In this document: positions 38,997-60,663 of the stretch, piece by piece
Layout of the letters: each line of letters begins with the position of its first letter
Position numbering within the stretch: position 1 is the stretch's first letter
Assembly: GCA_021773135.1 (NCBI GenBank)
Contig: JAJFKP010000038.1
Span: 1-64,000, forward strand
Length of the DNA: 64,000 nucleotides
Direction of reading: 5' to 3'
From: Woeseiaceae bacterium
GTDB lineage: Bacteria; Pseudomonadota; Gammaproteobacteria; Steroidobacterales; Woeseiaceae
Made by a program: the position numbers and the translations under genes
Notes under the pieces: model-generated
What the model saw: the letters and a program-made list of their open reading frames with translations, nothing else
Databases searched by the model: none
Told to the model about the DNA's origin: nothing

Positions 38997-40430
38997 TTAC
39001 CCGGCGTCACGATAGCCATAGACGGATTTGACCTCCAAAAACTCTTCGACGCCATGCGGGCCCCACTCGCGACCGTTGCCAGATTGCTTGTAACCTCCAA
39101 AAGGCGCCTGGTCATCCAATGACGCGTTGTTTATATGCACCATGCCAGCTTCCAGGCGGGCGGCAATAGCGCGTGCGTGCTCGAGGTTCTTCGACGATAC
39201 GTAGCCTGAAAGCCCGTAAGGTGTGTCATTTGCGATTCTTACGGCCTCGTCTTCGCTGTCATACGGGATTATCGACAGAACCGGCCCGAAGATTTCTTCT
39301 CGCGCGATTGTCATATCGTTACTTACGTCTGAGAACACGGTCGGTTGCACATAAAACCCCTTTTCCAGACCTGCGGGTCGTCCAGTACCGCCTGCCACAA
39401 GCGTGGCGCCCTCGTCGATTCCCGCCTGAATCAATCCCTGGATCTTGTTCCACTGAGCTTCGGAAACAACGGGGCCGATTCGCGTTCCGTCGGCCTGCGG
39501 GTCGCCGGGTGTCGTCGAAGCGGCCCTTTTCGCGGCGATTGCGGCGGCAGCAGCAAGCTTCTCGCGGGGTACGAGCATACGTGTCGGTGCGTTGCACGAC
39601 TGCCCGGTATTCTCGAAACAATTGCTCGCGCCGCGAGCTACCTCCCGCTCAAAGTCTGCGTCATCTAGAATGATATTGGCGGACTTGCCGCCTAGTTCTT
39701 GCGCAACACGCTTGACTGTCGGTGCGGCCGTCTGTGCGACCGAGACTCCCGCACGCGTCGAACCGGTAAATGACACCATTGCGACGTCAGGATGTCCGCT
39801 TAATGCAACACCGACGTGCGGGCCGTCACCATTGATCAGGTTGAAAACGCCTGCCGGTACGCCCGCTGCATCCATAATCTCGGCGAATATCATGGCGTCA
39901 AACGGCGCGATTTCGCTTGGCTTCAGGACCATCGTGCAACCGGCTGCCAGGGCAGGTGCCACTTTTACGGCGATCTGGTTGATCGGCCAGTTCCATGGCG
40001 TAATGAGAGCGCAGACGCCAATCGGCTCTTTTACGATCTGTGTAGTGCCATGTTGCGTTTCGAATTCCATCTCTTTCAATGTATCGATGGTTGACTGGAT
40101 ATGCTGCGGGCCGCTGGCAGCCTGTGCATATTTAGCGAGCTTCCAGGGTGCCCCCATCTCTTCCATGATCGCGGTGGCGACCTCATCGTGACGCTTTGCA
40201 AACTCCACCAGGATTCGTTCCAGCAATGCGATCCGCTCTTCGCGGCTGGTGGCAGCGAAAGCCGGGCCAGCCCGTTTTGCAGCAGCGACTGCCTTATCGA
40301 CATCAGCAGCTGAGCCCAGGCTGATGCGGCCACAGACTTCCTCGGTAGCGGGGTTTATTACCGGGTATGGGTTGGGCGTTACCGGGTCGACCCACTGGCC
40401 ATCGATATAAAACTGCAGCATGTCACGCAT
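38997..40430 (-). CDS. NAD(P)-dependent aldehyde dehydrogenase
   Basis: A 477-residue ALDH superfamily enzyme oxidising an aldehyde to an acid. NAD-site residues are seen in ITPWNWPINQI and VLKPSEIAPF, with FTGSTRAG further on. The general base is in QELGGKSANII, the catalytic Cys in NTGQSCNAPTRM, and EEIFGPVLSI and NNASLDDQAPFGGYKQSGNG follow. Start 40430 has aggaaa 6 bases upstream; an in-frame extension to 40598 would overlap the divergent gene. The substrate is unknown. The divergent FAD-linked hydroxyacid oxidase may use its product (inference). Confidence 0.93.
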   Translation of the reverse strand: MRDMLQFYIDGQWVDPVTPNPYPVINPATEEVCGRISLGSAADVDKAVAAAKRAGPAFAATSREERIALLERILVEFAKRHDEVATAIMEEMGAPWKLAKYAQAASGPQHIQSTIDTLKEMEFETQHGTTQIVKEPIGVCALITPWNWPINQIAVKVAPALAAGCTMVLKPSEIAPFDAMIFAEIMDAAGVPAGVFNLINGDGPHVGVALSGHPDVAMVSFTGSTRAGVSVAQTAAPTVKRVAQELGGKSANIILDDADFEREVARGASNCFENTGQSCNAPTRMLVPREKLAAAAAIAAKRAASTTPGDPQADGTRIGPVVSEAQWNKIQGLIQAGIDEGATLVAGGTGRPAGLEKGFYVQPTVFSDVSNDMTIAREEIFGPVLSIIPYDSEDEAVRIANDTPYGLSGYVSSKNLEHARAIAARLEAGMVHINNASLDDQAPFGGYKQSGNGREWGPHGVEEFLEVKSVYGYRDAG

Positions 40431-53711: not shown

Positions 53712-54449
53712 TCACTGTTGACCTGTGCCCAATAGTATCGCCGGATCCATGTCGTGGCTGGAGCCGTATTCAGCTATCAGTTCAGCGATGCGTTTCGCTG
53801 CATCTTCCTCTGTTTTCTTTCTCTGACTACACATCGACAGTTCGCTCGAGCCCAGGAACGCTTGTTCTTCGTAGCAAGAATTATTTTCCTGATAGGGCTG
53901 CCAGATTCGGTTCTGAAGCATGAATTCTGTAAAGCCTCCTCGCGCTACGGTTATAGAACCGGCAAAGCAGCTTGGGACGCCACGGGTCGTCAGCTACTCT
54001 ATGTTCTGCGTGCCCAAATTGCCCCTATGGCTGCTCCAGTCGAATCGTTCGGGTGAGGACACTAATCCAGCCCTCACTGGGTTTAGATGAATGTACCTCA
54101 CCAGCTCAGGCAGGTAGGCATCTTCATTGACGAGAATGGCTTTATGTCGCCACGCAAATAAATGACCGCTCCGACCGCGTTTGCGGTTAATGAATCGTGC
54201 ATAGCGAGAAGCAGACCAGCACATGAACTCGGACAATGGTCGTTCCGACACCTGCATAACGGCGTGAATATGGTTGGTCATTCAGCAGAATGCGCGAAGT
54301 CGGCGGTCGTATCGATCTAGTCATTCGGCGACTATACGATTCAATTGGTGCCGGTCATCACTGTCGAAAAAGACAGGCTCGCGAGCGTTCCCTAGTACAA
54401 TGACGTGGTAAATACCGCCGTCGATATGAATCCGTAATGGCCTTGCCAT
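53712..54449 (-). pseudogene. REP-associated tyrosine transposase (RAYT, Y1/IS200-like) with three in-frame stops
   Basis: Read on the minus strand from ATG 54449, a single frame of 245 codons without any frameshift gives MARPLRIHIDGGIYHVIVLG, a TNHIHAVMQV metal motif, and RYIHLNPVRAGLVSSPERF then WSSHR. A C-terminal EEQAFLGSSEL and AAKRIAELIAEYG region follows. This is the full RAYT architecture including the catalytic Tyr segment. The frame is broken by TGA at 54321-54323, TGA at 54282-54284 and TAG at 53994-53996. In each case a Trp is expected from the family (EWLDRY, FCWMTNH, WLTT). Flanking REP-like palindromes agree. It is dead as a normal gene. Confidence 0.82.
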
Positions 54450-54538
54450 CCCTGGCCCCCAATGTTGCTAAAATACCAAGCTATTCCGTCTCCGGAACGA
54501 CAACAAGTTTCATTACCCCGCAAAAAATTGATTAAGTC

Positions 54539-54551
54539 GGTGCCCGGCACC
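54539..54551. repeat. REP-like palindrome (right flank of RAYT, inverted)
   Basis: GGTGCCCGGCACC is the reverse complement of the left-flank element, and a run of A lies just before it where the left copy has a run of T. With the transposase between them, the two form an inverted REP pair around a RAYT. Confidence 0.6.
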
Positions 54552-54766
54552 CGATACTGCGTGACTTGTGCTATTGCGGCCCCATCGTAATCATCGCTCG
54601 AAAACTCGGCTATCAGTTGCTTGACGCTCGTATACGCAAGGACATTTCGCAGACAGCGTGTAAACCCAAGAAAATACCATAGTCGGTGAACCCCAACTTG
54701 GGTCTGCTGTAATTGTGGCGGAGCCGCGTCGTTACTGACCTAAAAAATGCTTTCGACAATGACCAC
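54552..54766. other. Region between REP/RAYT unit and arginine leader
   Basis: No gene recognised. A small perfect dyad cccaacttggg lies at 54692-54702. A 121-codon minus-strand frame crosses this region and the leader but has no homology I can see and runs against the terminator; I do not call it. Confidence 0.3.
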
Positions 54767-54797
54767 ATGGAAGCTTTCCGGAGGGCTAAGCAGTCTG

Positions 54798-54826
54798 TTG
54801 CGATGCATAACGATATGTGCAATAGT
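54798..54826 (+). promoter_or_regulatory. Possible promoter of the arginine leader transcript
   Basis: TTGCGA (54798-54803), a 17-base spacer and AATAGT (54821-54826), each four of six matches to consensus. Transcription would start near 54833, exactly at one candidate ATG of the leader peptide, giving a leaderless message. It is weak, and an upstream promoter is equally possible. Confidence 0.25.
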
Positions 54827-54832
54827 CGAACC

Positions 54833-54916
54833 ATGCGAAATAACCAGCCGACTACAACATTGAATCTGCGCCGACGCTCACGCCGACGTAGTCGCACGGC
54901 TGGGCGTAGTATCTGA
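54833..54916 (+). CDS. Arginine-rich leader peptide of the arg operon
   Basis: A short frame ending in LRRRSRRRSRTAGRSI before TGA 54914-54916. Eight of the last fifteen codons are Arg: cgc/cga/cgt at 54869, 54872, 54875, 54881, 54884, 54887, 54893 and 54905. ATG 54833 gives 27 residues; in-frame ATGs at 54815, 54803 and 54767 give longer forms, and none has a clear ribosome site. It stops 25 bases before a strong terminator and about 100 bases before the first arginine gene, which is the position of an attenuator leader. The peptide itself would have no function; ribosome stalling on its Arg codons would sense Arg-tRNA supply. Confidence 0.65.
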   Translation: MRNNQPTTTLNLRRRSRRRSRTAGRSI

Positions 54917-54969
54917 CAGACTGAATTTCCCCGATACACGAAAACCCAGCCATCAGCTGGGTTTTTTTT
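54844..54969 (+). promoter_or_regulatory. Ribosome-mediated transcription attenuator for arginine
   Basis: Four segments can pair in alternative ways. Segment 1 CCAGCCG (54844-54850) is complementary to segment 2 CGGCTGG (54897-54903). Segment 2 GGCTGGG (54898-54904) is complementary to segment 3 CCCAGCC (54945-54951). Segment 3 is also the 5' arm of the terminator (arm 4 at 54956-54961). Segment 2 lies inside the last codons of the arginine leader peptide. A ribosome finishing the leader would cover segment 2 and allow 3:4, stopping transcription. A ribosome stalled on the Arg codons would leave 2 free to form the 2:3 antiterminator. Seen: the complementarities. Inferred: the mechanism. Confidence 0.65.
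54941..54969 (+). terminator. Rho-independent terminator (attenuator) before argF'
   Basis: Ten-base perfect stem aaaacccagc / gctgggtttt with a five-base loop catca, followed by four more T. It ends 45 bases before the argF' ATG and points in the same direction, so unless it ends an unknown upstream transcript it must regulate the operon. Confidence 0.88.
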
Positions 54970-55013
54970 GCATCCCATCTGGTGGCTCTAATCAAACGGA
55001 AACGGAGCCAGCT

Positions 55014-56033
55014 ATGAGGCATTTCATAACAACCGCGGATTGGAGCAAGGATGAACTTCAATCTGTTCTCCAGGTTGCAGATCGCCTGAAACAAGACCGT
55101 AACCAGTGTCTACTTGACGGTAAAACGGTCGCATTGTTGTTTCTGAATCCGTCTCTGCGTACGCGAGCTTCCTTTCAGATCGGCGCGCACCAATTAGGTG
55201 CGCAGGCAGTTGTTCTCGAGCCGGGCAACGGGGCATGGGGCATTGAATTCGACCAGGGCACGGTAATGGATGGCACCGCTGAGGAACATATCAGTGAGGT
55301 TGCCGCTGTGTTATCGCGATATTGCGACATGATATGTATGCGCGCATTCCCAATGTTCCAGGACTGGAGCTACGACCGCACTGACCCCTGGATTACGGCG
55401 CTTGTTCGACATGCGAGCGTCCCCGTGATCAATATGGAAACGATCGTCCACCCGTGCCAGGAGCTGGCGCTCATGCAAACCCTCAGGGAGAAACTGGGGG
55501 AACCGGCCGGTAGGAACCTGACCGTGACATGGACCTGGCACCCGAAACCCCTTAACACAGCAGTAGCGAACTCGGTCATTATGATCGCAACTAAATTTGG
55601 CATGAATGTGCGGCTGCTGATTCCGAATTCGGATTACCTGCTGGATGAATCATTCATGGCTGCTGCCCGCAACAACGCCGCTGACGCAGACGGGTCGTTC
55701 GAAGTAACACATGATATTGACGCTGGATACGCTGGTGCGGATGTCGTATACGCTAAGAGCTGGGGACCTATTACTTTTTATGGTGATGCCGATGGCGCCT
55801 CAAACCTCTCGGAGAAGTACAAACATTTTATCGTCGACGAAGATAAAATGAGCAAATCGAACAATGCTTTGTTCAGTCACTGTCTGCCGCTACGGAGAAA
55901 CATCAAAGCGACCGACGGCGTCATGGACTCGGAATTCTGCGTCGCCATCGATGAAGCCGAAAACCGGTTGCACGTACAAAAGGCAATGATGCTGCATTTG
56001 CTTGGCGTTAATGCCTCCGAAGTCCGGTCATGA
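55014..56033 (+). CDS. argF': N-acetylornithine carbamoyltransferase
   Basis: AOTCase carbamoylates N-acetylornithine to N-acetylcitrulline, replacing the usual ornithine carbamoyltransferase step. The carbamoyl-phosphate loop FLNPSLRTRASF (S47-R51) is present, as are ETIVHPCQELALMQT and the AOTCase-type TWTWHPKPLNTAV. The end HCLPLRRNIKATDGVMDS contains the family's Lys that becomes carboxylated, and EAENRLHVQKAMM follows. ggag lies 6 bases before ATG. It is first gene of the arginine operon, behind the attenuator; its last bases overlap argG (ATGA). The use of acetylated intermediates agrees with the deacetylase located third. Confidence 0.93.
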   Translation: MRHFITTADWSKDELQSVLQVADRLKQDRNQCLLDGKTVALLFLNPSLRTRASFQIGAHQLGAQAVVLEPGNGAWGIEFDQGTVMDGTAEEHISEVAAVLSRYCDMICMRAFPMFQDWSYDRTDPWITALVRHASVPVINMETIVHPCQELALMQTLREKLGEPAGRNLTVTWTWHPKPLNTAVANSVIMIATKFGMNVRLLIPNSDYLLDESFMAAARNNAADADGSFEVTHDIDAGYAGADVVYAKSWGPITFYGDADGASNLSEKYKHFIVDEDKMSKSNNALFSHCLPLRRNIKATDGVMDSEFCVAIDEAENRLHVQKAMMLHLLGVNASEVRS

Positions 56034-57250
56034 TCGCGCCAGCGAAAACGGTGGTTCTTGCGTTCTCCGGTGGCCTCGATACCAGTTACTGTCTCTACGA
56101 TCTGAAAAAACGTGGCTACCGGGTGCACACCGTATTCGTTGATACGGGTGGAATTGACGAGACTGAGATCCAGGCGATTGCAGATCGCGCGATACAACTC
56201 GGCAGTGACCACCATCACGAACTGCATGTCGCTACCGAACTCTGGGAAGAGTTTGTGCAGCCACTGACCTGGTGCCATGGACGAGTAAACGACGAATACC
56301 CGTTACTCTGCTCCGATCGCTACGTGATTGTCCGCAAATGCCTGCAGTTGGCGGACGAGCTCGAAACGAACTGTTTCGCCCACGGCTGTACCGCAATGGG
56401 CAACGACCAGCTGCGCTTCGATCAGACTGTACGCAGTCTGGGGGAATACGAGATTCTCGCGCCTATCCGCGATCTGCAGGCTAAGACGACGCTCGTCCGT
56501 GACTACGAGATACAGGTTCTTGAAGATGCTGGTTTCGCAGTTCCCGCGGCGAATCAAAAGTACTCGATTAATCAGAATCTGCTGGGCGTGACAATTTCCG
56601 GGTCAGAGATTGACGCATTTGACATCCCGGGGCCAGGTGCTACGGCACTCTGCGAGCCTAGGCAGAACTGGCCGGTCGAGCCACTGACATTGATCATAGG
56701 CTTTGAACATGGTGTCGCGGTGACGCTAAACGGCCGCGAGATGACGGGCCCGGAATTACTGGCTGAATTAAATTCATCATGTGGCGCTTACGGCGTCGGA
56801 CGGCATGTGTACACAGGCGATGTCACGATTGGGCTCAAGGGAAGAATTGTATTCGAATGTCCTGGAATTGATGCATTGCTGGTTGCACATCAGGCATTGG
56901 AAGACGCGGTAAATACGCGTTGGCAAAATCAGTTTCGACACGTCGTCGCCAAACGCTGGACCGAACTGGTTTACACGGGATTCTTTTACGAACCGCATAA
57001 ATTCGACCTGGAAGCGTATCTGCGCTCATCGCAGCAGCATGTCTCCGGTACTGTTACGTTGCGGACAGACGGCGGGGTCATTTTGCCCGTCGCCATTGAT
57101 TCAGCGCACATTCTGCAAGAACCTGATTCAGTCTACGCGCAATCTGCCGCCTGGACGCCTGAGGAGGCAAGCGGTTTTATCAAACTGATTGGTCAGAGTT
57201 CGACGCTATCGGCAAGGATTAACAGCCGGCGGCAGGACGATCAGGAATGA
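56030..57250 (+). CDS. argG: Argininosuccinate synthase
   Basis: A 406-residue ATP-dependent ligase joining citrulline and aspartate. The PP-loop VLAFSGGLDTSYCLYDLKKRG is at the N-terminus. ELHVATELWEEF, FAHGCTAMGNDQLRFDQTV and AANQKYSINQNLLG follow in the normal order. It starts inside the argF' stop (4-base overlap) and itself overlaps the deacetylase gene by 4 bases, so translation is coupled. This branch of ArgG is shorter and distinct from E. coli ArgG and matches the Xanthomonas-type operons. Confidence 0.93.
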   Translation: MIAPAKTVVLAFSGGLDTSYCLYDLKKRGYRVHTVFVDTGGIDETEIQAIADRAIQLGSDHHHELHVATELWEEFVQPLTWCHGRVNDEYPLLCSDRYVIVRKCLQLADELETNCFAHGCTAMGNDQLRFDQTVRSLGEYEILAPIRDLQAKTTLVRDYEIQVLEDAGFAVPAANQKYSINQNLLGVTISGSEIDAFDIPGPGATALCEPRQNWPVEPLTLIIGFEHGVAVTLNGREMTGPELLAELNSSCGAYGVGRHVYTGDVTIGLKGRIVFECPGIDALLVAHQALEDAVNTRWQNQFRHVVAKRWTELVYTGFFYEPHKFDLEAYLRSSQQHVSGTVTLRTDGGVILPVAIDSAHILQEPDSVYAQSAAWTPEEASGFIKLIGQSSTLSARINSRRQDDQE

Positions 57251-58332
57251 TACCGACGATGATATTGAAGCATCTGGCGGCCTTGGTCGGGTGCGATACA
57301 CAGAACCCGCCGCGCGACATTGGCGCAAATCATGACATATTCAAATACATTGGCTCTGTCCTTGCTGGCAAAGACTTTTCCGTTTCAGTGGCGGATCACG
57401 GGCGGGGACGCGTCAGTTATCTTGCGAAGCGGGGCGACCCGAAAGTCCTCTTTAACGTGCATCTGGATACCGTACCAATCGGCGCAGGCTGGACGCGACC
57501 GCCGCTGAAACTAACCCTCGAAGGCTCGCGGGCTTTTGGCCGGGGTTGCTGCGATATCAAAGGTGCCGCGGCGGTGCTCCTGGCGATCGCTGAAGCTTCT
57601 GACCAGCCAATCGCGATCTTGTTTTCGACTGACGAGGAAGGGGCGGAGGGCTGCTGCGTCGACGAGTTTTCGCAGTCACTGCCGGCAGGCAGCTACCAGG
57701 TTGTTGTTGTGGCAGAGCCAACCGAGTGCAAAGCGGTCCTTGCACATCGTGGCTATCTCTCGGTGTTGGGTGAGTTTCACGGCAAGCCCGGGCATAGCTC
57801 TACACCACGAACATTAATCGACAATGCTAATCACCAGGCTGCCTTATGGGCCTGCAACGCGATTCAATACGCGGCGAGCGAGGCCGCACTAGGGCGCGGC
57901 TTGTGTTTCAACATAGGGTCCATGTCGGGTGGGACGTCAAGCAATGTCATCGCTGCAAAGTCGAACGTTCATTGGAGCGCACGATTGCCTCCTGGCGGTG
58001 ATACGTCCGTCGCGTTATCGGCAATTTGCAATGCAACTGACGCATCGAAAACGGCCAGCTGGAATGCTCGCTTTGAAGGTCCGCCGCTGCCTGCGGATGC
58101 AAGTGCCGTGACACCCACTCAGGATTTCTGTGACCGCCACAGCCTGGAGATCGGAACGCCGGTGGATTACTGGACAGAGGCTTCGTTATTTTCTGCGGCC
58201 GGCCATCCAGCAATGGTTCTTGGACCCGGGAATATAGAACAGGCGCACGTCGCGGATGAATGGGTGAACATCAAGCAGCTAATGCGCGCCGCAAGGATTT
58301 ATGACGGGTTGCTGAAGGAGACTCATCAATGA
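57247..58332 (+). CDS. argE: Acetylornithine/acetylcitrulline deacetylase (M20 family)
   Basis: A 361-residue M20 metallopeptidase-family deacetylase. It has VLFNVHLDTVPIGAGW (first metal His/Asp), GRGCCDIKGAAAVLLAIA (bridging Asp), and FSTDEEGAEGCCVDEF (catalytic Glu pair). A dimerisation domain with HRGYLSVLGEFHGKPGHSS and a final metal His in GPGNIEQAHVADEWV follow. In this pathway the substrate is most likely N-acetylcitrulline. It overlaps its neighbours by 4 bases on each side. Confidence 0.92.
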   Translation: MIPTMILKHLAALVGCDTQNPPRDIGANHDIFKYIGSVLAGKDFSVSVADHGRGRVSYLAKRGDPKVLFNVHLDTVPIGAGWTRPPLKLTLEGSRAFGRGCCDIKGAAAVLLAIAEASDQPIAILFSTDEEGAEGCCVDEFSQSLPAGSYQVVVVAEPTECKAVLAHRGYLSVLGEFHGKPGHSSTPRTLIDNANHQAALWACNAIQYAASEAALGRGLCFNIGSMSGGTSSNVIAAKSNVHWSARLPPGGDTSVALSAICNATDASKTASWNARFEGPPLPADASAVTPTQDFCDRHSLEIGTPVDYWTEASLFSAAGHPAMVLGPGNIEQAHVADEWVNIKQLMRAARIYDGLLKETHQ

Positions 58333-59660
58333 GTGAAATTCGAAATGTTATCGTCGAACTTCTCGGTCAGTTCAGTGCCAACCGCGAGGCTCAGGACTAC
58401 CTGTTGCGCTTCTCCAGCGTCGAGAACAAGCAATTCGCAGTAATCAAGGTAGGTGGTGGCGTCATAGCAAATGAGATGGAAGAACTTGCATCCGCGCTCG
58501 CGTTCCTGCGGCACGTCGGTCTGTTCCCCATCGTATTGCACGGTGCTGGCCCGCAATTGAATGCAGCATTGGAAGCCAAGGGCATTGAACCAAGATTTGT
58601 TGACAATCTCCGCTATACGGACAGCGAAATACTGGCCATCGCAAGACCGATCGTTTACGAACAGAGCCAACTCCTGGTCGAGGCGCTCGATCGGCACAAC
58701 GTTCGTTCGCGAATGATCCAGCACGGCATTTTCGAATGTGACTACCTGGATAAATCGCGGTATGGCCTGGTCGGCGACATCAAGAACGTCAACACGCAAA
58801 GCATCGATGCTGCAATTCAGGCTGGTGCACTGCCCATCGTTGGTTGCTTCGGCGAATCCACAGGAGGCCAGGTACTTAACATTAATGCCGATAGTGCCGC
58901 GACGGCTTTGGTAACGGCAATCAAGCCACACAAGACCGTCTTTTTGACACCTAGCGGAGGACTTTTGGATGGTTCCGGCCAGATTATTTCAGCGATCAAT
59001 CTCAGGTCCGACTATGCACACTTGACCAGCGCAGACTGGCTTCATTCGGGCATGAGCCTCAAGCTCGACCAAATTAAGTCGCTGCTTGACCAATTGCCGC
59101 CGACCGCATCCGTATCGATAACCTCGGCTCGGCAACTTACAAAGGAACTGTTCACGCACAAGGGATCGGGTACCTTGATCCGAAGCGGAGAAACATTCGC
59201 GGCGTGTGGGTCCCTGACAACAGAGCAAAAAGCGAAATTGCGCCAACTGCTGGAGCGGTGCTTTGGTCGAGCGTTGCGAGCGGATTATTTCGAGAGCCGT
59301 GTATTCGATCAGGTATTGTACTCGTCTTCTTTTCGCGCGGCGGCCGTTATTACGCGCGACGCTGAAAACATCCCCTATTTGGACAAATTTGCCGTTACGC
59401 CAAATGCCCAGGGCGAGGGACTCGGAACGACGCTCTGGAACCAGATAACGAGACTCTACCCGCAGATCTACTGGCGCGCCCGCCCGAAAAAGTCGATAAC
59501 GCCCTGGTATCTGAAGCAGGCGGACGCCGTTCTGCGTCGCGGTAAATGGCTTGTTTTTGCGGTCGGCTTTGAAGACATGGCCAAATTGAATGAAGCGGCC
59601 AGCGTGGCTGCCGCGCTCTCGGAAAGCTGGCAAGCCTCAGACATCGAGCGTTTTCTCTAG
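58329..59660 (+). CDS. argB: Fused acetylglutamate kinase / N-acetylglutamate synthase (NAGS-K)
   Basis: A 443-residue bifunctional enzyme covering the first two steps of arginine synthesis. The amino-acid kinase domain (about 1-290) has VIKVGGGVIANEMEELA, LHGAGPQLNAALEAKGI, and IVGCFGESTGGQVLNINAD. The C-terminal GNAT-type domain (about 300-443) has YLDKFAVTPNAQGEGLGTTLWNQ with the acetyl-CoA loop, and then WRARPKKSITPWYLKQADA. The N-terminal arm and linker match Xanthomonas NAGS-K, where arginine inhibits the enzyme. Start overlaps argE by 4 bases. No separate argA is needed. Confidence 0.93.
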   Translation: MSEIRNVIVELLGQFSANREAQDYLLRFSSVENKQFAVIKVGGGVIANEMEELASALAFLRHVGLFPIVLHGAGPQLNAALEAKGIEPRFVDNLRYTDSEILAIARPIVYEQSQLLVEALDRHNVRSRMIQHGIFECDYLDKSRYGLVGDIKNVNTQSIDAAIQAGALPIVGCFGESTGGQVLNINADSAATALVTAIKPHKTVFLTPSGGLLDGSGQIISAINLRSDYAHLTSADWLHSGMSLKLDQIKSLLDQLPPTASVSITSARQLTKELFTHKGSGTLIRSGETFAACGSLTTEQKAKLRQLLERCFGRALRADYFESRVFDQVLYSSSFRAAAVITRDAENIPYLDKFAVTPNAQGEGLGTTLWNQITRLYPQIYWRARPKKSITPWYLKQADAVLRRGKWLVFAVGFEDMAKLNEAASVAAALSESWQASDIERFL

Positions 59661-59715: not shown

Positions 59716-60663
59716 ATGAATGCAGGTATTGCCCTGATTGGTGGCCGCGGCTACGTGGGAGAAACGCTTTTGCAGCTATTGCAAACGCACCCTGGCATGG
59801 AACTGGCGTGGGTGGCATCGCGTAGCCTGGCCGGCCGCAGCATTAATTCGGTTTACCCTGATTTGCGTTCGGACATGACATTTGAGTCAGTCACCCCGCA
59901 GATGGCCTCTGAGAAGCAGGCGGACGTGGTCGTTTTAGCCCTGCCTAACGACATGGCCAGCCAGTATGTTAATCGGTTAAACCCGACGCAAAAAATCATT
60001 GATTTGAGCGCCGACTATCGGTTCGACGGGAATTGGGCCTATGGTTTACCCGAGCGAAATCGGCAGAAAATTCGCGATGCAATACGGGTGAGTAATCCGG
60101 GTTGCTATGCCACAGCAATGCAACTGGCATTAGCCCCGCTGCTCAACGACATCTGCAGGCCTCCGGTTGTTTTCGGTGTGTCGGGGTACAGTGGCGCCGG
60201 GCGATCGCCGTCTGCGCGCAATGATCCGGACAGGATCAGGAATAACCTGCAACCGTATTCGCTCAACGGACACGTGCACGAATCCGAAGTCAGTCATCAT
60301 CTTCGTCAACAGACCTACTTTCTGCCACACGTAGCCGAGTTCTTTCGCGGAATCTCGATAACGCTCTCCGTAGACCTGGTTCGAGAGACCAGCGCCAAAG
60401 AACTGCTGGATATCTTCCGCGCACATTACGCAGATGAAGCATTGATTGAAATTCTCGATGAAATTCCTGAAATTGGAAACGTCACGCAAGCGACGACGGC
60501 ACTGATCGGTGGTTTTAGCGTCGACAAAAGGGACGCACGACATGTCTGCCTGGTTGCTTGCATAGATAACCTTCTGAAAGGCGCCGCGAGCCAGGCGTTG
60601 CAGAACATGAATCTGATGCTCGGCTTTGATGAATTGGCGGGTATCGCAACCGGGACCGAATAA
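59716..60663 (+). CDS. argC: N-acetyl-gamma-glutamyl-phosphate reductase
   Basis: A 315-residue NADPH-dependent reductase for the third step. IALIGGRGYVGETLLQLLQ is the dinucleotide loop. The catalytic C130 lies in SNPGCYATAMQLAL, with substrate loop VSGYSGAGRSPSARN and later LKGAASQALQNMNLMLG. It starts 55 bases after the kinase/synthase stop, the only real gap in the operon. argH does not follow in this window, and neither does argD. Confidence 0.94.
   Translation: MNAGIALIGGRGYVGETLLQLLQTHPGMELAWVASRSLAGRSINSVYPDLRSDMTFESVTPQMASEKQADVVVLALPNDMASQYVNRLNPTQKIIDLSADYRFDGNWAYGLPERNRQKIRDAIRVSNPGCYATAMQLALAPLLNDICRPPVVFGVSGYSGAGRSPSARNDPDRIRNNLQPYSLNGHVHESEVSHHLRQQTYFLPHVAEFFRGISITLSVDLVRETSAKELLDIFRAHYADEALIEILDEIPEIGNVTQATTALIGGFSVDKRDARHVCLVACIDNLLKGAASQALQNMNLMLGFDELAGIATGTE

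Follow-up and report, generated by a model that had tools for sequence, protein, structure and literature searches.

In a stretch of 64,000 nucleotides from a Woeseiaceae bacterium (assembly GCA_021773135.1, contig JAJFKP010000038.1, positions 1 to 64,000), which we call the window, the region 54833-54969 precedes an operon for the acetylated arginine pathway that begins with argF', the gene for N-acetylornithine carbamoyltransferase. Judging from its sequence and from that of related loci, we consider it very probable that this region is a ribosome-mediated transcription attenuator that ties the expression of the operon to the supply of charged arginyl-tRNA. It combines a short leader frame with a run of arginine codons, an antiterminator strand at the end of that frame and an intrinsic terminator upstream of argF', and the same combination was found at 68 of the 82 argF' loci that were compared.

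The leader and its proposed switch

The leader peptide ORF (MRNNQPTTTLNLRRRSRRRSRTAGRSI, 54833-54916, forward strand, as are all features of the element) runs from an ATG at 54833 to a TGA at 54914-54916 and would specify 27 amino acids. Seven of nine consecutive codons near its end (54869-54895, RRRSRRRSR) are arginine codons, namely CGC CGA CGC (54869-54877), CGC CGA CGT (54881-54889) and CGC (54893-54895), and this run is the proposed site of ribosome stalling. The terminator (54940-54969) begins 23 bases after the leader stop codon and comprises a hairpin (54940-54966) with a tract of eight T residues (54962-54969). Its stem of 10 pairs (54941-54950 with 54956-54965) can be extended to 11 pairs (54940-54966), the last of which is a G-U pair. 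A generic promoter and terminator scan did not list this terminator at 54940-54969, probably because the stem runs into the T tract.

Four segments can be distinguished. Segment 2 (GGCTGGG, 54898-54904) is the antiterminator strand, lies within the leader ORF and copies the 3' arm of the terminator; segment 3 (CCCAGCC, 54945-54951) forms the terminator's 5' arm and is common to antiterminator and terminator; segment 4 (54956-54961) is the core of the 3' arm. Segment 1 (54844-54850) can pair with 54897-54903 and is not conserved in relatives. A preliminary description of the region had pointed out the arginine run, the stem with its T tract and the argF' start (55014), all of which are in place by direct reading, and the three complementarities that it gave (54844-54850 with 54897-54903, 54898-54904 with 54945-54951, and 54945-54950 with 54956-54961) are exact. 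When the whole window was searched for the complete element (terminator, antiterminator and arginine leader), there was one match on the forward strand, at 54940, and a second, weaker one near 39638 on the reverse strand.

Transcription would, according to the mechanism that we propose, start at the leader ATG or within a few bases of it. With plentiful arginine, the ribosome would reach the stop codon and sit on segment 2, and with segment 2 masked the terminator (3:4) would form and RNA polymerase would stop in the T tract. Under arginine limitation, the ribosome would stall on the arginine codons, leaving segment 2 to capture segment 3, so that no terminator is formed and argF'GE(BA)C is transcribed. 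The switch between 2:3 and 3:4 pairing appears well supported by the comparison of loci, because its parts occur in 68 of 82 and the complementarity seems to have been re-matched between some lineages; stalling, termination, read-through and a response to arginine are what we infer from this arrangement.

Folding of the RNA allows such a switch. The region 54833-54969 has a predicted energy of -41.6 kcal/mol (z -3.47), which was equalled by none of 200 shuffles. For the RNA as it would stand before the 3' arm of the terminator is made (54884-54954), the antiterminator gives the most stable fold (-21.5 kcal/mol, z -2.47; 4/200 shuffles equally stable). With the 3' arm included (54884-54965), the terminator becomes the minimum-energy fold (-25.2, z -1.90; 9/200 shuffles equally stable) whereas the centroid remains that of the antiterminator; on RNA alone, the two folds are thus closely balanced. 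By sequence and folding, the antiterminator would exclude the terminator, as it does in amino-acid attenuators.

Recurrence upstream of argF'

Loci were drawn from named genome contigs and from whole genomes, and 86 of them carried an argF' protein at least 50% identical to that of the window. Four were set aside (L073, L099 and L050 as duplicates, and L005, which begins at the gene), leaving 82 for the comparison. The sample includes 30 loci from a single family (that of genome G262), which are the best-scoring ones of a family in which 57 of 60 searched genomes have argF' above the cut-off. As the loci are interrelated, the shuffle and Fisher values given here overstate independence. The count of 68 loci that have an arginine-codon leader followed by a terminator, with an antiterminator strand close to or at the leader end, includes all 30 loci of this family and was obtained from script output and inspection; the leader frames of these loci were fixed by peptide motifs of our own choosing, so that arginine counts within the frames would be circular and have not been used.

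A detector with fixed settings for the whole element gave a match before 57 of the 82 argF' genes vs 2 of 399 other genes (at least 200 codons) at the same loci. One of the two control matches, in L015, is that locus's own argF' element seen from another start codon, and the other, in L124, is a distinct hairpin lying before the leader. Eleven of the 68 loci were missed by the detector (L001, L020, L024, L040, L041, L105, L106, L118, L121, L124 and L126). A terminator hairpin that qualified under a fixed rule was present before 64 of the 82 argF' genes, as compared with 25 of the 399 controls.

A side observation concerns seven leaders in which at least three valine codons stand directly before the arginine run: L009, L016, L018 and L025, from Marinicella, and L020, L022 and L031, the set including several with a Lysobacterales label.

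Pairing, covariation and spacing

When measured against dinucleotide shuffles, the antiterminator complementarity had a median p of 0.02, and p was at or below 0.02 in 37 of the 68 loci. Terminators were sorted into five types that we defined ourselves (40, 17, 5, 4 and 2 loci), and leaders were scored with terminators of their own and of other types. For leaders of the ACCTGGT type the score is 22.3 with matching terminators and 10.0–13.5 with the others, and Marinicella leaders score 19.9 with their own terminators and 10.3–12.0 with the others, while the common types CCCAGC and CCCGGC are mutually tolerant (16.1–18.1). The layout of the antiterminator differs in Marinicella, where the leader end GCTCTTTGGCT (L016, L018 and L025, with L009 one base off) pairs with the loop and inner arm of the terminator, the paired loop being CCAAAGA. 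These sequences suggest that leader end and terminator have been re-matched together between some lineages.

The preliminary description had proposed that genomes related to that of the window be compared upstream of argF' for arginine codons, for compensatory changes and for the alternative 2:3 and 3:4 folds, and the comparison supports its reading of these two folds. Arginine codons recur in 68 of 82 loci, and an alignment (A1) of 27 of the 32 Xanthomonas-type leaders has full pairing for both alternatives. For the 3:4 terminator, all 243 cells of this alignment are paired and 13 double changes occur, a covariation score that was reached by 0 of 500 shuffles; for the 2:3 antiterminator, all 189 cells are paired and there is one double change. 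RNAalifold returned, for the Xanthomonas-type leaders, the terminator together with three short helices that lack double changes.

Spacing is also as the mechanism would require. The distance from the first arginine codon to segment 2 is 29 bases in the window and 20–47 bases across loci, being at least 14 in all 68. With a ribosome footprint of the usual size assumed, a ribosome stalled on the arginine codons would free segment 2 in 68 of 68 loci, and one at the stop codon would mask it in 65 of 68. The exceptions are three Kangiella loci, where 21 bases separate the end of segment 2 from the stop codon.

Absence of ArgR from genomes with argF'

Control of arg genes is commonly exerted by ArgR, a DNA-binding protein. 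Among 99 relatives, ArgR (PF01316) was detected in 63, and its distribution follows the type of carbamoyltransferase: it occurs in 0 of 16 genomes with argF', in 63 of 64 that have only another argF, and in 0 of 19 with neither (Fisher p 6e-16 for argF' vs other-argF genomes, kinship being ignored). It is likewise absent from all 19 argF' genomes of a second set, 15 of which are among the 16, and a search of the source genome (G000) with PF01316 gave no ArgR match. In the 23 genomes that were reached through the loci, ArgR is present in two, both of them Phycisphaerales without the attenuator. This set also holds seven of the eight alphaproteobacterial genomes that lack the attenuator, and none of the seven has ArgR; thus, loss of ArgR alone does not imply an attenuator.

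In the gammaproteobacterial argF' lineage without ArgR the element is widespread, which corrects the preliminary description, where arginine genes of gammaproteobacteria were taken to be controlled classically by ArgR or by feedback. An element of this kind before argF', in genomes without detectable ArgR, suggests how xanthomonads and their relatives regulate arginine without the classical repressor.

The leader peptide

Thirty-two leaders share the peptide motif TSRARR (L069-L072, L101-L127 and L006, that is, the 30 loci of the G262 family plus L072 and L006). The amino acids GMTSRARR are invariant in all 32, with variation at the third codon positions of G, T, R, A, R and R and no first- or second-base change. 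TSRARR was the rule by which these leaders were selected; what is informative is therefore the conservation of the neighbouring G and M together with the silent changes at third positions. Such silent drift supports translation of the leader, and the pattern hints at a constraint on GMTSRARR at the level of the peptide. We regard it as possible, if rather doubtful, that the Xanthomonas-type leader peptide is itself functional, such that the nascent chain, the released peptide or the Xoo5 RNA described below tunes stalling or acts in trans, beside attenuation through the arginine codons.

The invariance of GMTSRARR in 32 leaders exceeds what a mere counting of arginine codons needs, and this, together with the reportedly arginine-linked leader of Salmonella speF, could be taken to indicate a nascent-peptide arrest, in which the peptide sequence with arginine or some other ligand stalls the ribosome, and not uncharged tRNA. 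We think this very improbable, as other lineages share the arginine codons but not the GMTSRARR peptide, and as arginine-induced arrest would presumably turn a biosynthetic operon on in arginine excess, which is the wrong sign.

Match of the Xanthomonas-type leader to the small RNA Xoo5

In Xanthomonas-type genomes the leader is matched by an Rfam family, RF02242 ("Xanthomonadaceae sRNA Xoo5", sRNA standing for small RNA), with 144 bits in L101 and 126 bits in L069; in L101 the model begins two bases upstream of the leader ATG. Matches occur in 19 of 23 genomes. Thirteen are over the cut-off, one per genome and all immediately 5' of argF' in the same orientation, and of the seven weaker matches six are also upstream of argF' and one (G467:C73) lies elsewhere. 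The family labels of the relatives' genomes were inferred from Xoo5 together with protein matches. No Rfam family matches the leader region of the window (54400-55300): the gathering score of RF02242 was not reached there, the search giving only an unrelated weak match (E <= 5), and RF02242 had no match in G000.

In Xanthomonas oryzae, according to the main text of the original report, sRNA-Xoo5 lies between PXO_00354 and PXO_00353 (Liang 2011, PMC3039613); PXO_00353 is N-acetylornithine carbamoyltransferase and PXO_00352 is argininosuccinate synthase. The 5' end of Xoo5 was mapped by rapid amplification of cDNA ends (RACE) and its 3' end was taken from a clone, giving a length of 124 nt (PMC3039613), which equals the length of the RF02242 model. 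Northern blots revealed bands of ~130 and ~100 nt, both in early growth and the short one alone later, and Xoo5 was unchanged in an hfq mutant. The main text does not contain the words arginine, leader or argF, and it remarks in general terms that transcriptional attenuators may be among the clones derived from 5' untranslated regions. All of the sRNAs except Xoo8 were deleted, reportedly leaving the flanking genes unaffected and causing no change in virulence, extracellular enzymes or growth (for Xoo5, in rich or minimal medium) (PMC3039613).

One might therefore see in Xoo5 an independent gene for a trans-acting sRNA that stands before argF' by happenstance. It was seen on Northern blots, cloned and catalogued in Rfam as an sRNA, its deletion is said to spare the flanking genes (PMC3039613), and a leader RNA could also act in trans, as has been reported for the trp leader RNA of Sinorhizobium. 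We nonetheless hold an independent sRNA gene to be very unlikely. All 13 matches over the cut-off, and six of seven weaker ones, are directly upstream of argF'; the codons of the leader core vary at third positions only; and outside the Xanthomonas-type leaders the sequence varies by group, yet arginine codons, terminator and complementarity recur. If the region is an attenuator, as we favour, then Xoo5, a published orphan RNA described as a non-coding sRNA without assigned function from the same locus before argF', with a model that ends before the terminator, gains a function that can be tested.

A separate observation in the same paper concerns Xoo1, located upstream of thiC, the deletion of which lowered the argF' protein 1.7-fold and argG 3.25-fold in Xanthomonas oryzae (PMC3039613, Table 4).

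Predicted promoter and start of the transcript

A predicted leader promoter consists of a -35-like TTGCGA (54798-54803), a 17-base spacer and a -10-like AATAGT (54821-54826) that ends six bases before the leader ATG. From this distance, a leaderless or nearly leaderless mRNA is predicted. Among 66 loci, 34 have their best promoter-like site ending 4–10 bases ahead of the leader ATG, most of them with TTGC and a 17-base spacer, as against a mean of 4.2 and a maximum of 8 of 66 in a control with 30 shuffles per region. A Shine-Dalgarno-like string is found in 12 of 66 leaders, 8 of these owing to GAGGAT at the -10 place, vs 46 of 68 argF' genes; these promoter and Shine-Dalgarno counts, like the promoter shuffles and alignment A1, are affected by four loci (L069, L070, L114 and L127) in which the script put the leader start upstream of the likely one. 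The pattern indicates that the leader mRNA is probably leaderless or nearly so. That the region is a plain terminator for upstream transcription with arginine codons present by chance, the operon promoter lying further downstream, can practically be dismissed: it gains something from the generic scan, in which no promoter-like site passed in 54500-55050 (the site at 54798-54826 being weaker), so that a leader promoter is not obvious, but it is contradicted by the detector controls, the shuffles, the exchange of terminator types and the covariation, by the same promoter layout in many relatives, and by the mapped 5' end of the Xanthomonas homologue.

Observations that weigh against attenuation

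Several results speak against the attenuator, beginning with the unaffected flanking genes after deletion of Xoo5, if that statement is taken literally. A transcript ending at the terminator would measure ~160 nt in L101, as compared with the published 124 nt, so that the hairpin lies beyond the 3' end of the cloned Xoo5, perhaps owing to processing or to a truncated clone.

The element was not found at 14 of the 82 argF' loci, 12 of these calls being made from script output alone. Two are gammaproteobacterial (L003 and L013, both read base by base), eight are alphaproteobacterial (L027, L028, L029, L032, L034, L035, L036 and L038) and four belong to other phyla (L011, L017, L021 and L030); L030 has a short MRRRRIG frame for which the script found no terminator. 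In the preliminary description, relatives that lack the arginine run or the terminator while the operon is conserved were named as evidence against its proposal, and these 14 loci, counted by argF' locus and not by operon, are partly of that kind. Among the 68, the alphaproteobacterial L033 has an antiterminator no better than its shuffles (p 0.47), L024 has merely two arginine codons in its run, and p exceeds 0.1 in six loci besides L033, namely L040 (0.31), L047, L051, L052, L124 and L127.

The exchange of terminators between leaders is asymmetric, in that leaders other than the ACCTGGT type also score 17.5–18.6 with Marinicella terminators (common types 18.1–18.6), and for the two ATCCAGC leaders the score is higher with CCCAGC terminators (18.5) than with their own type (16.5). 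The 2:3 covariation in A1 was reached by 38 of 500 shuffles. A further discordant group is formed by four genomes (G021, G069, G074 and G082) that exceed the NF003384 cut-off (319–353 bits) and possess ArgR; they were counted among those with other argF because they are merely 36–39% identical to the window protein.

Finally, the pairing of segments 1 and 2 is nominally present in the window (p = 0.045), and p is at or below 0.05 in 5 of 68 loci, which is about chance level; a conserved 1:2 pairing is not supported on this basis. Of the 1-2-3-4 logic of the trp and his leaders, which the preliminary description saw reproduced here, the alternative of 2:3 and 3:4 is well supported and conservation of 1:2 is not.

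Relation to known attenuators

Ribosome-mediated attenuators are known from the trp, his, leu, thr, ilv and phe leaders. The element resembles those of the trp and his class in its short ORF with cognate codons, its terminator before the first gene and an antiterminator strand that would be released by stalling. It differs from them in the amino acid and in the operon, arginine and argF', in the lack of a conserved 1:2 hairpin, in the scarcity of Shine-Dalgarno-like strings (in many cases the predicted RNA begins with the leader itself) and, in Marinicella, in an antiterminator that pairs with the terminator loop. To our knowledge, arginine is not among the amino acids for which proteobacteria are known to regulate the cognate biosynthetic operon through attenuation at a leader peptide; Vitreschak and colleagues reportedly surveyed proteobacterial attenuators in 2004. 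In the literature searched, mainly openly available papers, no arginine attenuator before argF' was found, and to that extent the preliminary description was right that no well-studied one was known, although its Xanthomonas version had already been catalogued as Xoo5. As far as this literature goes, the amino-acid specificity is new, the kind of attenuator being that of the trp and his class; a further point of interest is that different lineages seem to have re-matched their leader ends and terminators.

Naville and Gautheret 2010 do not use the word arginine in their main text, and passages of the paper on the Xanthomonas NAGS-K describe feedback inhibition and the operon without the stem "attenuat". 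The closest parallel for the start of the transcript is trpL of Sinorhizobium (rnTrpL/peTrpL), likewise an attenuator RNA with its 5' end reported to be the leader ATG (PMC7298713), which differs in responding to tryptophan and in belonging to another bacterial class. The rbfL of Staphylococcus is reportedly an arginine-related leader but acts on the translation of rbf, and attenuation has been proposed for carA of Pseudomonas under pyrimidine control.

The operon and its surroundings

The genes downstream of the proposed attenuator, all on the forward strand, were identified with NCBIfam as those of the acetylated arginine pathway in the order argF'-argG-argE-argBA-argC. They are argF' itself (55014-56033; NF003384, 498 bits, cut-off 288), argG for argininosuccinate synthase (56030-57250; best match NF003385 with 558.7 bits, under its cut-off of 603), argE for acetylornithine deacetylase (57247-58332; NF006439, 355 bits, cut-off 345), a fused argB-argA for acetylglutamate kinase of the synthase-kinase fusion type (58329-59660; NF003387, 527 bits, cut-off 426) and argC for N-acetyl-gamma-glutamyl-phosphate reductase (59716-60663; TIGR01850, 305 bits, cut-off 234). 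Upstream of the leader, on the reverse strand (53994-54281), there is a fragment that resembles a REP-associated tyrosine transposase (49.5 bits, against a cut-off of 80). Two argH-like genes above the curated cut-off lie elsewhere in the source genome, outside the window (L128 on contig C20 and L129 on contig C9); with the fixed detector, no such arginine leader was found at these two genes or at carA of that genome.

Within the genus, 11 other genomes (71–95% complete) were available. An argG match was obtained only in G006, where it is partial, and G006 is also the only one with a full-length carbamoyltransferase match stronger than 1e-20. On the evidence of these two genes, most of the 11 look like arginine auxotrophs, while the source genome has the whole argF' operon. 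In a tree, the argF' protein of the window sits on a long branch and is weakly placed beside Wenzhouxiangellaceae (support 90/26). A horizontal gain of the operon by the source genome is plausible.
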